A stretch of 64,000 nt of DNA from the NCBI GenBank assembly GCA_028288445.1, contig JAQBNT010000160.1, positions 1 to 64,000 on the forward strand, in the 5' to 3' direction. The translations under genes and the position numbers were made by a program. This document shows, piece after piece, positions 12,582 to 37,500 of this stretch; within the stretch, counting starts at the first letter, position 1, and every line of letters begins with the position of its first letter. This DNA comes from Hymenobacter sp. GTDB lineage: Bacteria > Bacteroidota > Bacteroidia > Cytophagales > Hymenobacteraceae. The notes under the pieces were generated by a model. The model made no database searches and was not told the DNA's origin. It saw only the letters and a program-made list of their open reading frames with translations.

Positions 12582-13466
12582 ATGGCAAGCTTAAAAGAAG
12601 TCCGCAACCGCATTCAGTCGGTGAGCAGCACGCAGCAGATTACCAAAGCCATGAAAATGGTGGCGGCGGCCAAGCTGCGTCGGGCCCAGGACAACATCGT
12701 GCGGATGCGGCCCTACGCCCAGCGCCTGAATGCCATCCTGACCAACCTGACCCGCAACGCCGACGATGACATCGTGAGCGACTACGGCGTGGCCCGCGAG
12801 GTGCGCAAGGTGCTGGTCATTGCCATCACTTCCGACCGTGGCCTGGCCGGCGCGTTCAACACGAACGTATTCAAGGGCGTGAACGCGGCCATTGCTTCGC
12901 GTTATTCCAACCTGCCGGCGGCCAACATCTCGGTGATGGCCATTGGCAAGAAGGCGCACGACTACTACGGCCGTCGCGGCCCGATAGTGGGCGACTACAC
13001 GCATGTCTTCGCCAAGCTCTCGTTCGAGACGGTGCGGGCGGCAGCGGAAGTGGCGATGGACGGTTTCCGCAACGGCATTTACGACGAGGTGGTGATGGTC
13101 TATAACGAGTTCCGCAACGTGGCTACGCAGATTATCCGCACCCAGCAGCTGTTGCCGCTGGTGCAGGAGGAAGCGCCCGCTACGGCCAAGCCGGAGTCGA
13201 ACGTGGATTACCTGTTCGAGCCTTCGAAAGAGGACATCGTGCAGACGCTGATTCCGCAGTCCATCAAGATTCAGCTCTACAAAGCGGTGCTGGAAAGCAA
13301 CGCCTCGGAGCACGGGGCCCGCATGACGGCTATGGACAAAGCCACCGACAACGCCGGTGAGCTGCTCAAGGCCCTCAAGCTAACCTACAACCGGACGCGT
13401 CAGGCGGCCATCACGACCGAGATTCTCGAAATCGTGGGCGGTGCTGAGGCGCTGGCGGCTGGCTAG
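12582..13466 (+). CDS. atpG: F1 ATP synthase subunit gamma
   Basis: Central shaft that couples c-ring rotation to catalysis, 294 residues. N-terminal coiled-coil helix (LKEVRNRIQSVSSTQQITKAM) and the diagnostic C-terminal helix (YNRTRQAAITTEILEIVGGAEAL). Last gene of the operon, followed by a strong terminator. Confidence 0.97.
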   Translation: MASLKEVRNRIQSVSSTQQITKAMKMVAAAKLRRAQDNIVRMRPYAQRLNAILTNLTRNADDDIVSDYGVAREVRKVLVIAITSDRGLAGAFNTNVFKGVNAAIASRYSNLPAANISVMAIGKKAHDYYGRRGPIVGDYTHVFAKLSFETVRAAAEVAMDGFRNGIYDEVVMVYNEFRNVATQIIRTQQLLPLVQEEAPATAKPESNVDYLFEPSKEDIVQTLIPQSIKIQLYKAVLESNASEHGARMTAMDKATDNAGELLKALKLTYNRTRQAAITTEILEIVGGAEALAAG

Positions 13467-13487
13467 GCTCGGCATGCTAATTTGTGG

Positions 13488-13525
13488 AAAAGCCTGGAAA
13501 CCGTGAGGTTTCCAGGCTTTTTTTT
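13488..13525 (+). terminator. Rho-independent terminator of the atp operon
   Basis: Stem AAAAGCCTGGAAACC (13488-13502) and GGTTTCCAGGCTTT with a 4-nt loop, followed by a run of T to 13525. Confidence 0.93.
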
Positions 13526-13604
13526 GCGCCAATGCTTCGGCACAGGCATTCCCTGTGAAACCCGGAGGCTACCTTCACCTCCCTATTTCCCTTTCCATAT
13601 AGTG

Positions 13605-16184
13605 ATGAAGTATTTACTACGCACCCGTTTTCAATGTGTCATTGCGCTGGTTTTATTCGTTTTCGCGGGGCTGGTGCCTGCTTCGGCGAAAGGCGTGCCC
13701 GCGTTAGCGAGTGCCCTCGATGAGAACGGGAAGCTGCGCGGCGGTGCGTCCGGCTCGTTCGATGCCCGGGGATACCGACTGCGCATCGCGACGGATGGCC
13801 AGCCGACTTTTCAGCCTGAGAACACCCGGCGCGTGGCGGGCACCCTGGGCGCCGGCGACGCAAACTGGTCGGGGGCCTTTAGCGTGAACGGCACCGACGG
13901 CCGGGTATATGCCGTGGCCTTGGATGGCAGCGGCAACTTATACGTGGCGGGACTATTTACCTCCGCTGGCGGGGTGGCCGCCAATTGCATTGCCAAGTGG
14001 AACGGCACGGCCTGGACGGCGCTGGGCACCGGCATCGACCATTACGTGTACTCCCTGGCGGTAGACGGCAGCGGCAATGTGTACGCCGGGGGCGACTTTA
14101 CCACCGCCGGGGGCGTGGCTGCCAGCCACATTGCCAAGTGGAACGGGACGGCCTGGAGTGCGCTGGGGGCCGGGATTAATACGGCCGTGTATGCGCTGGC
14201 GGCAGACGTTGGGGGCAACGTGTACGCCGGGAGCTATTTCAACAGTGCCGGCGGTGCCCCCGCCAACTGCATCGCCAAGTGGACGGGCAGCGCGTGGGTG
14301 AACCTGGGCGCAGGCATTAGCAGCAATGCGTTTGTTACTTCATTGGCCGTGGATGGCAGCGGCAATCTATACGCGGGCGGCACCTTCACGGCCATTGGGG
14401 GCGTGCCGGCCACCAACGTGGCCAAATGGAACGGCACCGCCTGGAGTGCCCTGGGCACGGGTCTCAACAACGAGGTAGACGCGCTGGCCGTATCGGGCAG
14501 CCGCTTGTACGTCAGTGGAAGCTTCACCACGGCGGGCGGCGTGCCGGCCAACAACGTGGCCGAATGGAACGGCACGGCCTGGAGTGCCCTGGGCACCGGA
14601 GTAGCCGGCGGAGGGAGTGCCCTAGCGGTAGACGGGGCGGGCAACGTGTATGTGGGCAGCACCGTCAGCACCACCACCCCGGTCCTGGCGGCCACGGGCA
14701 GCGTGCTGAAATGGAACGGCACAACCTGGACGGTCCTGGGTACTGGTGCCGACAACGCGATACGGGCCCTCGCGGTGCGGGCCGACGGCACGGTGTACAT
14801 CGGCGGCAGTTTTGGCGTGGTCGGCGGCGTGGCCGTGAACAGCGTGGCCCAATGGGTGCCCGGCACGGCTGCCTGGGCGCGCCTGGGCACCGTGGCCGGG
14901 CCGGGCCAGGGCCTGTACGGCATTGCCTACGGGGGCGGGAGCGGAGTGGGCGCGCTGGCGGTGGATGCCAGTGGCCATGTGTACGCGGCCGGGACCTTCT
15001 TGACCGCCGGCAATGGGCTGTTGAACAAAGTGGCCCAATGGAACGGGGCAACCTGGAGCGACATGGGCGGCGGGGTAACGGGGAGCGTCAGTGCCGTGGC
15101 CGTCGGGCCCAACGGCAGCGTGTACGTGGGCGGCACGTTTACGGCGGCGGGCGGCGTGGCGGCCAGCAACATTGCCAAGTGGAACGGCACCACCTGGGTG
15201 CCCCTGGGCGCTGGCACCAGCGGGGCCGTGACGGCCCTGGCCGTGGATGCCGCCGGCAACGTGTATGCCGGGGGAGTGTTTACCACGGCTGGCGGGGCAC
15301 CGGCCAACCGGGTGGCCCGCTGGAACGGCACCGCCTGGACGGCCCTGGGCACCGGCACCGACAGCAACGTGTGGGCAATGGCCCTGAGCAGCAGCGGCGA
15401 CCTCTACGTGGGTGGTGGGTTCAGCACGGCCGGGGGCGCGCCGGCGGCCAACCTGGCCCGCTGGAACGGCACCGCCTGGACGGCGCTGGGCACCGGCACC
15501 GACCGCCCGGTGTACGCGCTGGCGGTGGATGGCAGCACCGTGTACGCCGGGGGATATTTTACTACGGCCGGGGGCGTGCCGGCGACCAACCTGGCCCGCT
15601 GGAATGGCACGACGTGGGCCGCCCTCGGGGCCGGTGCCGACGGCCCCATCCTGTCGCTGGCCGTGGATGGCAGCGGCAGCCTGTACGCGGGCGGCCTGTT
15701 CAGCAGCATCGGGGGCGTGGCCGCCAGCCATGTGGCCCGCTGGAACGGGAGCAGCTGGAGCCCCCTGGGCTCGGGGCTGAATGGCTACGTGTATGCCCTG
15801 GCGGCGGCCGGCAGCAGCGGCGTGTACGTGGGGGGCGATTTCAGCACGCTGGGCGACGGCAGCAAGCTGATGTCGAATATCGGCTACTATTCCAGTGCGC
15901 CGCTGGCGACGGCCACCCCCGCTCGCCCGGGAATCACCATTAGCCTCTATCCGAATCCGGCCCGTGCCCGCGTGGCGGTGCAGGTGCCCGCCCTGGCCGG
16001 TGCTACCAGGGCCACGCTCACCCTGCTGGATGCCCTGGGCCGCCCGGTGCACACGCAGCGCGTGGCCTTGTCTGCTGCCGGCGCGGCCACCGAAGTCCCA
16101 CTGGCGGGCCTCGCGCCGGGCCTTTACTACGTGCAGGTGCAGGCCGGGGGGCAGCTCACCAGCCAAACGCTGGTGGTGGAGTAA
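13605..16184 (+). CDS. Secreted T9SS cargo with 13 propeller-like WNG repeats
   Basis: Surface or secreted protein of 859 residues, function unknown. Signal peptide MKYLLRTRFQCVIALVLFVF...ASA. Then about 13 tandem units of about 50 residues, each with a (I/V)AKWNGTAW-like block, ALGTG, an AVDGSGNVYAGG strand and FTTAGGV; one unit (near residue 420) has an insertion (VPGTAAW). The spacing suggests a beta-propeller or solenoid. C-terminal T9SS type A sorting domain (LYPNPARARV ... GLYYVQVQAGG ... LVVE). The ATG at 13605 is chosen for the signal peptide; a longer upstream frame runs into the atp terminator. A near-match to the -7 element, TACCTTCA, begins at 13570. First gene of the cargo island. 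Confidence 0.88.
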   Translation: MKYLLRTRFQCVIALVLFVFAGLVPASAKGVPALASALDENGKLRGGASGSFDARGYRLRIATDGQPTFQPENTRRVAGTLGAGDANWSGAFSVNGTDGRVYAVALDGSGNLYVAGLFTSAGGVAANCIAKWNGTAWTALGTGIDHYVYSLAVDGSGNVYAGGDFTTAGGVAASHIAKWNGTAWSALGAGINTAVYALAADVGGNVYAGSYFNSAGGAPANCIAKWTGSAWVNLGAGISSNAFVTSLAVDGSGNLYAGGTFTAIGGVPATNVAKWNGTAWSALGTGLNNEVDALAVSGSRLYVSGSFTTAGGVPANNVAEWNGTAWSALGTGVAGGGSALAVDGAGNVYVGSTVSTTTPVLAATGSVLKWNGTTWTVLGTGADNAIRALAVRADGTVYIGGSFGVVGGVAVNSVAQWVPGTAAWARLGTVAGPGQGLYGIAYGGGSGVGALAVDASGHVYAAGTFLTAGNGLLNKVAQWNGATWSDMGGGVTGSVSAVAVGPNGSVYVGGTFTAAGGVAASNIAKWNGTTWVPLGAGTSGAVTALAVDAAGNVYAGGVFTTAGGAPANRVARWNGTAWTALGTGTDSNVWAMALSSSGDLYVGGGFSTAGGAPAANLARWNGTAWTALGTGTDRPVYALAVDGSTVYAGGYFTTAGGVPATNLARWNGTTWAALGAGADGPILSLAVDGSGSLYAGGLFSSIGGVAASHVARWNGSSWSPLGSGLNGYVYALAAAGSSGVYVGGDFSTLGDGSKLMSNIGYYSSAPLATATPARPGITISLYPNPARARVAVQVPALAGATRATLTLLDALGRPVHTQRVALSAAGAATEVPLAGLAPGLYYVQVQAGGQLTSQTLVVE

Positions 16185-16311
16185 GCCGGGGGGAAGCCTA
16201 CGCCGGGCACCCCGAGGATGGAATAGCCGGTGGCTGAATGGCCGCCGCTGTTAGGCCGCGGAAGGCCATGGCAGCCCGGACCACTGCGTAATCAGCAGAG
16301 ACAAACAAAAT

Positions 16312-16348
16312 AAACCAGGCCCGCTACCGTTAGGAGCGGGCCTGGTTT
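16312..16348. terminator. Probable terminator after the WNG-repeat gene
   Basis: Arms AAACCAGGCCCGCT (16312-16325) and AGCGGGCCTGGTTT (16335-16348). T-poor on the plus side and T-rich on the minus side. The rest of the 16185-16521 gap shows no gene or other clear signal. Confidence 0.65.
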
Positions 16349-16521
16349 ATGGAACGGGGGTTAACACTGGGGGCGGCTTTCGAGTAGGAGGGGGCGGGGC
16401 GGCGATGATTGATGGACGAGTGAAGCCGACGCCCCCTCCCCACAACCCCGGAGCGGAGCACCCGCCCAGCGCCCCGGCCCGCCTTATGCTGCCGTTTTAT
16501 CTTACCTATCCTATCCCCGCT

Positions 16522-16875
16522 ATGAGACGCATTGTGTTATCGCCCCGCATGGGGCTGCTGGCCATCCCGGTATTGCTGGAGCTGCTGGGGCCGGCGGCCT
16601 GCGCGCAGGACCTGGCCCCCCTGGCCGAGGTGGGCGTGTTCCCCAACCCCGCCCACATCCGGGCCACGGTGCAGGTGCCGGCGGTGCCGGGGGCCGATAC
16701 CGCCACCGTGACGCTGACCGACGCGCTGGGCACCGTGGTCTTCGAGCAGCCCGTGAGCCTGACCGGGGCCGGCGGCGCGGCCGAAGTGCCGCTGCTGGGC
16801 CGCCCCCCCGGCCTCTACCGCGTGCAGGTGCGGGCCGGCGCGCAGCGCGTGGCCCGCACCCTGAAGGTGGAGTAG
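16522..16875 (+). CDS. Minimal T9SS precursor: signal peptide plus sorting domain only
   Basis: A 117-residue protein. The signal peptide (about 28 residues, ending GPAACAQ) is followed after about eight residues by a complete T9SS type A sorting domain: VFPNPA, two beta-strand blocks (TATVTLTDALGTVVF and AAEVPLLGRPPGLYRVQV) and a closing LKVE. No cargo domain is present. The ATG at 16522 is chosen for the signal peptide; an in-frame upstream ATG at 16405 adds a proline-rich stretch without clear meaning. The frame is intact with the same codon bias as its neighbours, so it may be translated. It lies between two full cargo genes. It could be a degenerate cargo gene or a short product that occupies the sorting machinery. 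Confidence 0.7.
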   Translation: MRRIVLSPRMGLLAIPVLLELLGPAACAQDLAPLAEVGVFPNPAHIRATVQVPAVPGADTATVTLTDALGTVVFEQPVSLTGAGGAAEVPLLGRPPGLYRVQVRAGAQRVARTLKVE

Positions 16876-16960: not shown

Positions 16961-17024
16961 CACCCCGGCCGCGCAACCGTGGGTTGTGGGCCGGCTTTCT
17001 GCTATCTTCTTGCCCCCTGCTATC

Positions 17025-18743
17025 GTGTTGAATCCCTACTTCCTGCCGGCCCGGGCCGTGGCCCTGCTGCTGCTGGCCCCATTGGCCCCGGCTTTGGCCC
17101 AGGCCCCCGTCCTCATCAACATTGCGCCGGCCGCCAATGCCGTGGCCGCGCCCCGCAACGGGGGTGTGGTGGCCAGCTTCAGCCAGCCGCTCACCGCCGC
17201 CTCGGCGGGGGCGCTCCGGGTGTTCAGCAGCCAGCGGGGCGGCTTGCGGGGGGGCGGGGCGGCCACGGTGGTGGGGGCCAACGTGGGCTTCTTCCCCACG
17301 GCCTACGACTTCCGGCCCGGCGAAACCGTGCAGCTCACCGTGACCACGGCGGCGGCCAGCGCGGGCGGGGCCCTAGCCGCGCCCCGGGTGCAGCAGTTTA
17401 CCACGGCGGTGGGCGGCACGGGCACGGGCCGCTTTGCGCCGGGCACCGAAGTAGCCGTGGGGGTTGAGCCCAACAGCGTGGCCGTGGGCGACCTTGACAA
17501 CGACGGCGACCTCGACCTGCTGACCGGCAACCGGGGCACGGGCACCGTGAGCGTGCGCCTGAACAACGGCACCGGCACCTTCGGCGGCGGGCAGAGCCTG
17601 GCCGTGGCCAGCGCCGCGCTGGGCTTGGTGCTGGGCGATGTGGACGGCGACGGCGACCTCGACCTGCTGTCATCCAGCACGACGGGCAACGTCGTGAGCG
17701 TGCGCCTGAACAACGGCAGCGGCACCTTCGGCGGCGGGGCCGACGTGCCCGCCGGCGCCGGCCCCCAAGCGCTGGCCCTGGGCGACGTGGACGGCGACGG
17801 CGACCTGGATTTCGTGGCCACCAACCGCGACGTGGATTCGGTGAGCGTGCGCTTTAATAACGGCAGTGGCAGCTTTGGCGGCCGCCGGGGCGTGGGGGTG
17901 GGCAATGGCCCCCAGGGCGTGGCCCTGAGCGACGTGGATAACGACGGCGACCTCGACCTGCTGGCCACCAACCTGCTGGCCGGTACCGTGAGCGTGCGCC
18001 TCAACAACGGCCGCGGCACCTTTGGCGGCGGGCAGGAGGTGCCCACCGGCGGGCAGCCCTTCGGCATTGCCGTGGGCGATGTGGACGGCGACGGCGACGC
18101 CGACCTGCTGGCCGTGAGCTACCTCTTCAACGGCATCGTGAGCGTGCGCCTCAACAACGGCAGCGGCACCTTCGGCGGCACCCAGAGCGTGGCCGTGCCC
18201 AGCTACCCCCCCACCGTGGTGCTGGGCGACGTGGACCACGACGGCGACCTGGACCTGCTCACGGCCGACTCGGGCAACAGCACGGCCAGCGTGCGCCTCA
18301 ACGATGGCACCGGCACGTTTGCCGGCGGGGCCGACGTGCCGGTGGGTGACGTGGCCAGCGGCCCCAGCACGCCCAGCGCCGTGGCGCTGGCCGACGTGGA
18401 CGGCGACGGCGACCTCGACCTGCTCGCGGCCAACACCACCACGGCCGGCACCGTGAGCGTGCGCCTGAACAACAGCGCCGGCCCGCTGGCCACGGCTGCC
18501 GGCCGCGCCCCCGCCGCCCTCACGGCCTACCCCAACCCTGCCGGGCACGGCCCCGCCACCGGGCGCGTGGCCCTCACCCTGCCACCCGCCGCCACCCGCG
18601 CCGAGCTGCTCGACCCGCTGGGCCGGGTGGTGCGCGTGGTGCCCGCCCCGGCCGGCACCGCCACGCTGGACGTGGCCGGGCTGGCCCCCGGCCTCTACGT
18701 GGTGCGCGCCGCCGGCCAGGTGGCCCGCCTGGTGGTGGAGTAG
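17025..18743 (+). CDS. Secreted T9SS cargo with Ig-like domain and VCBS repeats
   Basis: About 572 residues. Signal peptide ending LAPLAPALAQA, then an SbsA-like Ig domain (NIAPAANAVAAPRNGGVVASF). Next are seven VCBS/FG-GAP-type repeats with the calcium-binding pattern DxDxDGDLDLL and the partner strand VSVRLNNGTGTFGGG, expected to fold as an integrin-like propeller. The C-terminus is a T9SS sorting domain (AYPNPAG ... GLYVVRAAGQVARLVVE). No ATG is available; GTG at 17025 gives the best signal peptide, and GTG 16986 is an alternative start. Function unknown; adhesion is a common guess for such proteins. Confidence 0.85.
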   Translation: MLNPYFLPARAVALLLLAPLAPALAQAPVLINIAPAANAVAAPRNGGVVASFSQPLTAASAGALRVFSSQRGGLRGGGAATVVGANVGFFPTAYDFRPGETVQLTVTTAAASAGGALAAPRVQQFTTAVGGTGTGRFAPGTEVAVGVEPNSVAVGDLDNDGDLDLLTGNRGTGTVSVRLNNGTGTFGGGQSLAVASAALGLVLGDVDGDGDLDLLSSSTTGNVVSVRLNNGSGTFGGGADVPAGAGPQALALGDVDGDGDLDFVATNRDVDSVSVRFNNGSGSFGGRRGVGVGNGPQGVALSDVDNDGDLDLLATNLLAGTVSVRLNNGRGTFGGGQEVPTGGQPFGIAVGDVDGDGDADLLAVSYLFNGIVSVRLNNGSGTFGGTQSVAVPSYPPTVVLGDVDHDGDLDLLTADSGNSTASVRLNDGTGTFAGGADVPVGDVASGPSTPSAVALADVDGDGDLDLLAANTTTAGTVSVRLNNSAGPLATAAGRAPAALTAYPNPAGHGPATGRVALTLPPAATRAELLDPLGRVVRVVPAPAGTATLDVAGLAPGLYVVRAAGQVARLVVE

Positions 18744-18914: not shown

Positions 18915-19009
18915 CCGGCTACAATCGATAAAAAATAAAAATGAATGTAGCCAGATGGAAGCCTGCCGGCTGGCTACATTCGTTTTTATTTTTTATCGAT
19001 TGTAGCCGG
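18915..19009. repeat. Inverted-repeat element, copy A
   Basis: A 95-bp palindrome made of two 36-bp subunits, each bounded by GGCTACA(A/T)TCG-type ends, separated by about 17 bases. The outermost arms CCGGCTACAATCGAT and ATCGATTGTAGCCGG match perfectly. The interior is AT-rich in a GC-rich genome. A second copy is at 37521-37611. No ORF inside; it looks like a small non-autonomous or REP-type element. Confidence 0.85.
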
Positions 19010-19059
19010 CCGATACCCCCCGTGGCCACACCCGCTGGCGGGTGCTCCGGCCCGCTGCT

Positions 19060-19200
19060 ATGCCCCGGCCGCGTCGCCTCGTGGTGGCCACAGGCCCGGC
19101 GGCGCGGGTGCTGCCGGCCGGGTCGTACCCGGTAGGGCTGCCGGCGGGTGTGTACGTGGTGCGCGCCGGCAATAAGGCCCTGCGCCTAACGGTGGAGTAG
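19060..19200 (+). pseudogene. Remnant of a T9SS sorting domain
   Basis: The last codons of a cargo gene survive: GLPAGVYVVRAGNKALRLTVE then TAG at 19198-19200, nearly identical to the ends of the genes closing at 25796 and 29363. Upstream the in-frame sequence is Pro/Arg-rich and no longer resembles the domain, and no signal peptide or cargo region remains. It is followed by a very good terminator, and the inverted-repeat element lies 50 bases upstream. Read as a decayed or rearranged cargo gene. Confidence 0.75.
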
Positions 19201-24200: not shown

Positions 24201-25796
24201 GCAAACTATGCTACCGGCACCCGCCCCGACTACGTGGTGGCCGGGGCCCTCAACGCCGACGCCGCCCTGGACCTGGTGGCCGTGAACCAAACGGCCAACA
24301 CCGTGACGGTGCTGCTGAATAACGGCACCGGCACCGGCTTCGCAGCCGCGTCGGGCAGCCCCATCACGGTGGGTACCACGCCCCAGAGCGCCACGCTGGC
24401 CGACCTCAACAACGACGGCAGCCTCGACCTGCTGGTGGTCTGCGCCAGCGGCACCATCAACGTGCTGCGCGGCAACGGCGACGGCACCTTCACGGCCCAG
24501 ACCAGCCTCACCGGCGTAGGCCCGGTGCAGATGCTGGCCGTGGGCGACCTCAACGGCGACGGCAACCTCGACCTGGTAGCGCCGCAGCTCTACAGCAATG
24601 CCGGCTATGCCGTGGTAGGGTTGGGCAATGGCAGCTTTGGCTTCGCCATCAGTACCTATACCGGGCTGGGCATTGGGCCCCGGGCCGTGGCCCTGGGCGA
24701 CTTCAACGAGGACGGCAAGCTGGACCTGACCTCCGCCAACTATATTAACGGCAGCAACGCCGGCACCATCAGCGTGCGCCTCGGCGACGGGGCCGGCTCC
24801 TTCATGGGCAGCACCGAGCTGACGGCCGCCGGTGCCAACTACGTGGTAGCCGCCGACCTGACCGGCGACGGGCACCTGGACCTGGCGTCTACCAACACCT
24901 ACGGCAGTGGCTCGCCGCTCAACGCGTGGGTCGGTACGGGCGCGGGTACGTTCGGCAGCGCCGCGACGCTGGCGATGAGCGGCGGCGGGGCAACCTACAC
25001 GCTCAGCACCGGCGACTACGACGGCAACGGCAGCATCGACCTGATTGCGCCCCGCAGCCTATACGGGGCCGGGGCGGGGGTCGACCTCTTCTCCTATGCC
25101 GGCGGCAGCTTCTCGGCGGTCACCACCAAAACCGGTTTCGGCAACCAGCCCCGCTACGTGGTCCTGGCCGACCTCAACAACGACCGGGCCCTGGACTTCA
25201 TCACCGCCAACTCGCTAGGGGCCAATACGGTAAGCGCCGCCCTGGGCGTGCCCTCCGGCAACCCCCTGCCCGTGGAGCTGATGACCTTCACGGCTACGGC
25301 GAAAGGCCGCGCCGTGGCCCTGGCTTGGGCCACGGCCTCGGAGAAGAACAGCGCCGCCTTCGAAGTGGAGCGCAGCCTTGATGGCAACGCCTTCGCCCGC
25401 ATCGGCACGGTGGCCGCGGCTGGCAGCAGCAGCACCCCGCACAACTACGAACTGCTGGATGCCCAGCTGCCCACCGGCGCAGCCACCCTCTACTACCGCC
25501 TGCGGCAGGTGGATGCCGACGGCAGCTTCAGCTACTCGCCCGTGCGCACGGTAGCCTTCAAAGGCGCCGCCGCCGGCCTGGCCCTCTACCCGAACCCGAC
25601 CAGCGCCAGCGCGGCCACCCTCACGGGCGCACTGCCCGGCACGGTGGTCACGGTGTATGACGCGCTGGGCCGCGAAGTAACCTCGGCCCCGGCCGATGCC
25701 GCCGGCACGGCCGCGCTGGTGCTGCCTGCTGGCCTGCCAGCGGGCGTGTACGTGGTGCGCGCCGGCTCCCAGGCTCTGCGCCTCACGGTGGAGTAG
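21252..25796 (+). CDS. T9SS-exported reprolysin-like metalloprotease, multidomain
   Basis: A 1514-residue secreted protein. Signal peptide ending GLSGAARAQ and a propeptide-like region. The zinc metalloprotease domain has HEMGHQFSASH (HExxHxxxxxH, about residue 375) and a possible Met-turn in TIMAYTD. Then come Ig-like segments (about 480-710), two IPT/TIG domains (about 714-880, ITGFSPTSGPAGTVVTITG), an SbsA-like Ig domain and seven or so VCBS/FG-GAP repeats (about 985-1330). Next is the ASEKNSAAFEVERS module, then the sorting domain (LYPNPTSASAA ... RLTVE). The ATG at 21252 is chosen for the signal peptide. The zinc ligands are intact, so activity is likely. It ends with a terminator family shared with the gene at 26670. 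Confidence 0.9.
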   Translation: MEHPYPKQPNATGRPRLVWYLTLLLLAGLSGAARAQQRPAPFFAADAPAARAATASPLVARLRQYRSYTLDLASLRTTLAAAPLRNKAAVALPGTTPLVISLPLPDGTAQRFAVWEAPLLAPALAARYPTLHTYGGRGLDDPTALLSLTVSPASFQAQVLSDQPQGAAYLEMTSQADADHYLSYYAHDVTAPTAGQRGCGADQLPAVPRPARRQGGPLDPGSSNLIQPVGPTLTVYRLIVTTTKEYTNGRTNPAVLADVTALINNVRTIQERDLAVTMTLVNFHFYQVGADGGYSQASDSQMIDQNRVNVETEFGAAAFDLGHLFATSGSGLAYVGVVGTTSNGGTANTYKAGAVSGNLNRTSPASYFSTSVIAHEMGHQFSASHTFSNAQGSCSSFPTGTAWEPGKGSTIMAYTDGGCDSPSSNVIQARSDDYYHTGSLEQMRTYIEGIPTVGTKVASGNTAPTIAVPANRTIPQGTPFRLTATGADADAADAATLKYSWEEMDSGTAANLNTAQTTNSSVPLFRSLLPSLTGNVRYFPALSNYNGATGTSATERLPTVARALNLRCTVRDNHAVSGAVATNTNSSIVGGLTLSPTVTLTVSAANATPFAVTAPNTAVTWAGGTTQSVTWNGVGTKTSAVSCQAVNVRLSTDGGLSYPTLLAAGVPNADGTGTASITVPNVASATARIMVEAADNYFFDISDANFTITAVAGPAITGFSPTSGPAGTVVTITGTGFTGTTAVSFGGVAASFTVNSATQITATVPATALTGTVTVTNGSTTTGGVFMVTPVLTGVNPTSGAIGVSVVISGNSLGGATRVSFNGTETTTFTLNTSVSPNTITVTVPLGATTGPLLVYTAGGASNGITFTVLPLAVVSISPAPNARAAKEYSTVVATLNAAPNANTSTVAPLKVSSLQYGGRKAGTTTVSGNTIIFDEAARFTAGEVVQVSLTTAATSSAGAVLPAAYVSQFTVRTRTTSGVGAGANYATGTRPDYVVAGALNADAALDLVAVNQTANTVTVLLNNGTGTGFAAASGSPITVGTTPQSATLADLNNDGSLDLLVVCASGTINVLRGNGDGTFTAQTSLTGVGPVQMLAVGDLNGDGNLDLVAPQLYSNAGYAVVGLGNGSFGFAISTYTGLGIGPRAVALGDFNEDGKLDLTSANYINGSNAGTISVRLGDGAGSFMGSTELTAAGANYVVAADLTGDGHLDLASTNTYGSGSPLNAWVGTGAGTFGSAATLAMSGGGATYTLSTGDYDGNGSIDLIAPRSLYGAGAGVDLFSYAGGSFSAVTTKTGFGNQPRYVVLADLNNDRALDFITANSLGANTVSAALGVPSGNPLPVELMTFTATAKGRAVALAWATASEKNSAAFEVERSLDGNAFARIGTVAAAGSSSTPHNYELLDAQLPTGAATLYYRLRQVDADGSFSYSPVRTVAFKGAAAGLALYPNPTSASAATLTGALPGTVVTVYDALGREVTSAPADAAGTAALVLPAGLPAGVYVVRAGSQALRLTVE

Positions 25797-37267: not shown

Positions 37268-37500
37268 TTACTCCACCATCAGGCGCGTGGTGCGGCTACC
37301 GCTGCGCACCACGTCCACGCCGGGGGCCAGGCCGGCCGGCAAAGGCAATGGCCCTGGTCCCCGGCCGGGTGGTGCCCGTGAGGCCCAGCACCGTGCCCGG
37401 CCGGCCAATGGCCGGAGCTACCGTTGTGAAGGCGAGGCGGTTTGGGCGCAGGCCAGCAGCGCCAGCGCCAGCAGTAGCGGCCGGCACAGCAGGAGGGGGC
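37268..37500 (-). pseudogene. Decayed signal peptide plus T9SS sorting domain gene
   Basis: On the minus strand the 3' end reads LPAGLAPGVDVVRSGSRTTRLMVE and TAA (37268-37270), the tail of a sorting domain. About 60-70 codons upstream in other frames lie the rest of a domain (APAIGRPGTVLGLTG) and a signal peptide (RPLLLALALLACAQTASP, about 37445-37500) followed directly by an in-frame TAG. So there is a frameshift and a stop codon. There is no room for a cargo domain, so the ancestor was a short precursor like the one at 16522. The inverted-repeat element lies just upstream. Confidence 0.7.

Follow-up and report, generated by a model that had tools for sequence, protein, structure and literature searches.

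Two small proteins that contain a T9SS sorting domain (CTD) are the closest described precedents for the gene presented here. The CTD of PorA (PGN_0123) binds PorV and the loss of PorA lowers T9SS gene expression; in the same report, PorA is displayed on the surface independently of the translocation machinery, and the authors propose it as an input to the PorXY–SigP pathway (PMC7712824). Fjoh_0547 of Flavobacterium johnsoniae, a CTD-containing protein of 112 residues, is described there as being secreted in sprA and porV mutants (PMC7712824); its cargo-free nature is deduced from its length alone. In the literature on cargo-free CTD proteins this remark on Fjoh_0547 was the only one we found. 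A CTD which is kept on the mature protein has also been reported for PorU and PorZ (PMC11285876, PMC10202324), but there it ends large multidomain proteins. The gene which we call mini lies in a stretch of Hymenobacter DNA of 64,000 nucleotides (the window, meaning the whole stretch that was analysed) and its product appears to fall into the size class of PorA and Fjoh_0547, with no homology implied. PorA, a protein of 246 residues, has a FimH-like N-terminal domain where mini has only ten residues, and the likeness of Fjoh_0547 to mini is one of size. Mini is a stand-alone export signal joined to one CTD; it occurs in one clade, and its position behind the ATP synthase operon is constant.

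As the original prediction held, the mini gene (Table 1) is intact, with a normal start and stop (ATG at 16522, TAG at 16873–16875), and encodes 117 residues. The predicted signal peptide has a hydropathy maximum of 2.56 over 11 residues, and Q29, which follows A-C-A at the border between signal peptide and linker, is invariant in all 21 intact sequences of the family. According to the Q-rule described for Bacteroidetes, the mature N-terminus is the Gln that follows the signal peptide (PMC5837995, PMC10653852), and the mature chain of mini would then have 89 residues with Q29 as the first. The short gap that had been proposed before the sorting motif is therefore real, but the figures given for it, about eight residues and a mature region of 88, become ten residues before V39 and 89. 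There is no cargo domain between the signal peptide and the CTD, only the ten-residue linker; from the Gln to the residue preceding [YF]PNP there are 9–23 residues across the 21 sequences and 11 in the window copy. We rejected the idea that mini is an outer-membrane lipoprotein, since the Cys of A-C-A-Q, compared with what we take to be the lipobox consensus, is substituted in 19 of 21 sequences and stands here in the context P-A-A-C. The T9SS type A profile TIGR04183 matches residues 39–111 with 25.2 bits (cut-off 23), ending at profile position 66 of 72, and it matches every one of the 21 intact orthologues at E ≤ 0.01; PF18962 gives 22.6 bits on mini (gathering score 27). Taken with its conservation in related species, described below, mini is a true CTD precursor that lacks cargo, and the gene is no damaged remnant.

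Table 1. Features of the mini locus, in positions of the window
Feature	Position	Strand	Basis
atpG, conserved upstream anchor of mini	12582..13466	+	
T9SS cargo gene (beta-propeller), variable neighbour; its CTD shares 53% identity with that of mini	13482..16184	+	
Perfect inverted repeat (arms of 16 nt, loop of 9 nt) separating mini from the cargo gene 5' of it	16310..16350	.	
mini, cargo-free CTD gene, 117 aa, ATG to TAG	16522..16875	+	ORF and 21 orthologous loci
Predicted Sec signal peptide, residues 1–28, ending A-C-A	16522..16605	+	Pattern, hydropathy, invariant Q29
Linker Q29–G38, 10 residues, poorly conserved among orthologues	16606..16635	+	
T9SS type A-like sorting domain (CTD), V39–E117	16636..16872	+	Seven-strand Ig-like sandwich in model
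FG-GAP/Big_5 T9SS cargo gene 3' of mini, variable neighbour	16986..18743	+	

Is mini peculiar to this one genome? Near-full-length matches, signal peptide included, were found in 22 of the 120 genomes of the genus, our own among them. Had all homologues carried an in-frame cargo domain upstream, the original prediction would have had to give way to a truncated gene; what we found in these genomes is the stand-alone form. Its claim of a signal peptide and sorting domain without cargo is also borne out by the CTD tree, where the 22 mini CTDs make up a single clade (support 0.992) and none of the 42 other CTDs, some of them from short or contig-cut frames and all from frames with the [YFLWVH][PA][NS]P motif, falls among them. 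Twenty-one of the genes are intact, all with an ATG start, and one (L024, genome G039) has a single TGA in the signal-peptide region. In the alignment of intact orthologues, identity to the window protein is 59–91% and 36 columns are invariant. The mini-family profile sets these 22 matches (178–215 bits) apart from the next best, at 100.2 bits in the genus and 103.4 bits in the rest of the family. Short-framed CTD matches of other kinds in the genus score 60–70 bits. Outside the genus, with up to 21 first-look candidates scored in each of 204 family genomes, two genomes gave profile matches at E ≤ 1e-15, G196 with 103 and 79 bits and G202 with 66 bits, all in frames of 603–660 codons; among the candidates scored in 390 genomes of the order (up to 11 first-look candidates in each), G196 was the only genome outside the genus at E ≤ 1e-21. 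The scan of genome contigs gave at least two distant loci in other taxa. Within our own genome, 55 places match the mini protein at E ≤ 0.001, and for all of them except mini the open frame has at least 253 codons.

The history of the gene was followed on a species tree of 82 genomes (atpG and part of atpA, FastTree, midpoint root) comprising our own, the 21 other carriers and 60 of the 98 non-carriers; of the 38 remaining non-carriers, 37 were without a fetched atpG locus (75–81% atpG identity) and one (G097) without an atpG match. All 22 carriers belong to one clade of 28 genomes (support 0.96) and none of the 54 tips outside it carries mini. The non-carriers inside the clade are G020, G042, G045, G065 and the poor assemblies G096 and G098. 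The simplest reading of this pattern is a single gain followed by several losses and, since several members of the clade lost the gene, any role of mini would be dispensable. The atpG genes of G020 (L093/L123), G065 (L133) and G045 (L134) are 97–98% identical and are followed by other genes in place of mini; those in G065 and G045 read like T9SS cargo, with the CTD ends outside the stretch fetched. That different genes follow atpG in these three genomes indicates a quick turnover of this place. Nor has the inheritance of mini been purely vertical. In the mini-gene tree, G115 (L010) groups with the window genome and its near relatives and G025 (L025) joins the wider window group, both with support 1.0, while in the atp tree both lie in the other half of the clade, a conflict that points to horizontal exchange of mini.

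The mini gene is selectively maintained, with purifying selection on its CTD. In 11 of 12 pairs, hand-picked from 210, dN/dS of the CTD was 0.04–0.28; the twelfth, L011/L013, gave 0.41, a value resting on just two changes. Over all pairs, mean pN was 0.139 in the CTD and 0.398 in the signal peptide plus linker, which shows that selection is strongest on the CTD and not on the leading peptide. Between L011 and L013 (genomes G072 and G073), dS was 0.01 in the CTD and 0.75 in the signal-peptide region, which looks like recombination within this short gene.

All 22 mini genes lie downstream of atpG on the same strand. The distance from atpG is 118–552 bp in 15 relatives, 1,495–3,417 bp in six and about 3,055 bp in the window, and the long gaps, those of the six relatives and the window, contain a T9SS cargo gene; in G103 and G039 it was seen as a CTD match in frames of 467 and 576 codons, respectively. 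The cargo gene in the window has its first possible start at TTG 13482, and the real start is perhaps an ATG at about 13605. Downstream neighbours of mini differ between loci, and the FG-GAP/Big_5 gene was matched in only two of the 21 relatives' loci. It had been proposed that mini might be a partner delivered in pieces, which we examined as a pairing with its neighbour. With a cargo gene between atpG and mini in just seven of 22 loci, we abandoned the idea of a fixed pair; neighbouring cargo genes are not conserved and such pairing is therefore unlikely. The inverted repeat between the upstream cargo gene and mini might be a terminator and hints at separate transcription of the two. A sigma-70/terminator scan listed nothing at the mini gene, the inverted repeat included. 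TTG-N17-21-TAnnTTT is a promoter pattern of the Bacteroidetes type, and it did not occur in the 90 bases before any of 21 mini starts. The decayed copies said to lie nearby exist in at least one place, a CTD tail at 19087–19197 (+) in a frame of 64 codons (ORF 18941–19135), which over 37 residues shares 73% identity with the CTD encoded by the gene that ends at 25796. There is a similar CTD scrap on the minus strand at 37271–37336.

What could a sorting domain do with nothing to sort? Our preferred interpretation, offered tentatively and by analogy with PorA, is that mini works in trans, as a CTD in its own right, at the T9SS of the outer membrane. Sec would export the protein and signal peptidase would leave pyroGlu29 at its N-terminus. 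The folded Ig-like CTD would itself be the product, with the short leading peptide not a functional part, and it would dock as a free ligand on a PorV-type shuttle or on the attachment complex, where it would be an accessory or a regulator, the kind of role proposed for Porphyromonas gingivalis PorA. The SprA/Sov channel may not be needed for it to get to the surface, which is what has been reported for PorA and Fjoh_0547. That mini competes for the secretion and attachment machinery or regulates it, as originally proposed, is possible. The genome encodes SprA (1990 bits) and PorV (450 bits); it also has two PorU-like pieces, on separate contigs and both below the family cut-off, and at least 150 TIGR04183 matches. 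For the second PorU-like match the scores were 98 and 72 bits, again below the cut-off; it is in a single frame of 1734 codons at C49:22808-29046 (L231, L194) and has a weak PorV-like match (37 bits) near it, and the two are a possible alternative sortase and shuttle. Another weak PorV-like match is on C196. PorU was discarded as a model for a non-cleaved CTD like that of mini because the loop differs: in the PorU-like CTD of this genome, H follows the loop glycine and position 74 is R.

Nearly as likely as the trans-acting CTD, and equally to be held with reserve, is that mini is a small secreted or surface Ig-like protein which was derived from a CTD and has a function unrelated to T9SS, for example adhesion or the binding of another surface protein. 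Ig-like domains commonly serve as binding modules. AlphaFold2, run on the alignment of 21 sequences, predicted an Ig-like sandwich of seven strands, with pLDDT block means of 89–95 from residue 41 (model ma37d55d401fd; strands 38–41, 47–52, 60–66, 72–79, 84–90, 97–105 and 108–116). The top two Foldseek matches, which speak for an unrelated function, are the DUF3244 Ig-like proteins BT_1867 and BT_3571 (4g5a and 3sd2; E 2.2e-4 and 8.4e-4), whose solved chains of 99 and 86 residues share the fold; their identity to mini is 14–16% and the likeness is known from the structure search alone. The CTD of mirolase (8qb1) came third (E 1.0e-3) and NucA bound in the T9SS complex (8glk) was at rank 36. 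In VIA-align, PorZ 686–775 (5m11) gave Z 10.0 (rmsd 2.0, 79 residues aligned) and mirolase also Z 10.0 (rmsd 2.6, 77 aligned), but many unrelated Ig-like domains equalled or exceeded these CTDs, the best with Z 11.1, and the fold is therefore not proof of T9SS engagement. A search of solved structures with the sequence profile returned two Chordin entries at E 0.8–0.9, which we took as chance. A function outside T9SS would also suit the incomplete TIGR04183 match, the missing basic residue discussed below and the invariant residues that are mini's own; among those seldom seen in cargo CTDs are I46, F74, E75, P77 and L92. Against it stands the retention of the PNP, D-x-x-G and G-x-Y positions of ordinary CTDs in all 21 sequences, save for one D-to-N change (P41, N42, P43, G70, G97 and Y99 are invariant), although these could be kept for the fold only.

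Mini thus shares with type A sorting domains (TIGR04183/PF18962) the fold, PNP, the glycine of the beta3–beta4 loop and G-x-Y, and differs from them in having no cargo, in the residue after the loop glycine, and in lacking a basic residue at the aligned motif E. The sorting domain had been called complete, a description to be qualified for the last strand. Motif E contains a near-invariant lysine near the C-terminus which has been linked to efficient secretion and to contact with PorV (PMC10202324, PMC10994853); a source cited on this lysine is PMC5446621, whose result we give as the citing papers present it. At the corresponding position, five residues from the C-terminus and equated with the published lysine by our alignment, not by structural superposition, a basic residue is found in none of 21 mini proteins (T in 19, P in one, M in one) versus 128 of 148 CTDs of the same genome. 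These 148 are the 150 scored TIGR04183 matches minus the second-family protein described below and L315, which is cut by a contig end; L313 was read to an internal stop, and L342 and L346 look like type B CTDs. Split by score, the count is 64 of 69 in the best-scoring matches and 64 of 79 in the rest; an earlier alignment gave 66 of 69, being limited to the 70 best-scoring of the 150 matches, which favours canonical tails. With the basic residue missing in all 21 sequences, PorV binding could be weak or absent. Could this loss mark a cargo-free protein? It could not, as the 13 CTDs closest to that of mini, of 42 ranked, also lack a basic residue in the last strand, and the loss is thus a trait of a CTD subtype and not of the cargo-free protein. 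These 13 are L086 (from G196, another genus), L031, L033 and ten more, all in longer frames. Their tails suggest a CTD subtype without the basic residue that may use a different route or shuttle.

The loop shows a second peculiarity. The beta3–beta4 loop motif is required for the secretion of RgpB in P. gingivalis (PMC11285876). The residue after the loop glycine is T or A in 21 of 21 mini proteins, and R (78), Q (51), A (6), K (3), N, S and H (2 each) or T, V, Y and G (1 each) in the 148 CTDs of the genome. Arginine occupies this position in 49 of 50 CTDs that resemble the mini CTD and were picked with the D-x-x-G pattern, but we dropped the notion that every cargo CTD has it and that cargo-free proteins alone have lost it, given its presence in just 78 of the 148.

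These comparisons also bear on a further reading, which we regard as unlikely: that mini is a natural competitor whose CTD enters the SprA–PorV pore, fails at a later step for want of the basic residue of motif E, occupies the translocon and so tunes the flux of ordinary cargo. Solved complexes show the CTD docking chiefly through its shape and through hydrophobic contacts, and the main role of the near-invariant lysine is placed at another point in transport (PMC10994853); most CTDs of this genome have the basic residue and mini does not. However, the loss belongs to the subtype, there are basic residues nearby (position 112 in 21 of 21 sequences, 115 in 16 of 21), and the CTDs counted in this genome make a large pool to compete with. 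We give very little credit to the idea that mini is an ordinary T9SS substrate whose payload is just the short N-terminal peptide, which PorU would free from the CTD for release or for attachment to LPS; signal peptide and CTD are both there, but the linker varies in sequence as well as in length and the CTD is the conserved part. That mini is a truncated cargo gene or a decaying remnant, as its position beside T9SS cargo genes, the likeness of its CTD to that of the gene just upstream and the stop codon of L024 might suggest, can practically be dismissed in view of the stand-alone orthologues with conserved start and stop, the in-frame stops one to four codons 5' of the ATG in five of them (L011, L012, L014, L019 and L021), the purifying selection, the cargo-free CTD clade, the fixed locus, and the contrast with six other short CTD frames that we read, four of them contig-cut and two starting inside cargo remnants, none with a signal peptide.

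The free-standing CTD acting in trans, which we prefer, may have a parallel in a second family. From the TIGR04183 matches of our own genome (here C159:14882-15115, in a frame of 160 codons) we identified a protein of 128 residues, encoded at C159:14882-15265 (L199; L191:1501-1884, minus strand), which consists of a signal peptide, a short stretch and a CTD and scores 43.9 bits on TIGR04183. Two more short-frame CTD matches in this genome are at C2:14381-14572 (L328, 194 codons) and, near a contig start, at C138:36-221 (L288, 73 codons). The second family was matched in 97 of 390 genomes of the order, 79 of them within the taxonomic family (our own included) and in all its six genera; the 20 unmatched genomes listed include no member of the family, and a further 273 were also unmatched. 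Best matches within the family are in frames of 125–289 codons, one with an internal TAA (G158), and those in the 18 genomes of other families are in frames of at least 205 codons. We read 30 sequences, a few with N-termini set by script at a later ATG: S or T follows the loop glycine and the lysine close to the C-terminus is kept in all 30, and all 30 loci contain a homologue of the upstream divergent neighbour gene of our genome, which we take from its motif to be a FAD-dependent oxidoreductase. Like mini, the second family has little between signal peptide and CTD, a small residue next to the loop glycine on its C-terminal side and, four positions beyond that glycine, an aromatic one; unlike mini, it has another CTD sequence, the lysine close to the C-terminus, another locus and a spread over six genera. 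The existence of a second cargo-free family indicates that this architecture is recurrent.

The CTD is usually viewed as a disposable address label. A cargo-free label under selection in 21 genomes, together with a second family that spans the taxonomic family, means that the label domain can itself be the product. Perhaps, though we think it rather improbable, stand-alone sorting domains form a distinct functional class, the two families acting in trans on secretion and sensing or throttling its flux while delivering nothing. At 89 residues, the mini protein would be a natural minimal ligand for understanding how PorV and SprA recognize a CTD, what motif E does and whether free CTDs regulate the flux of secretion.
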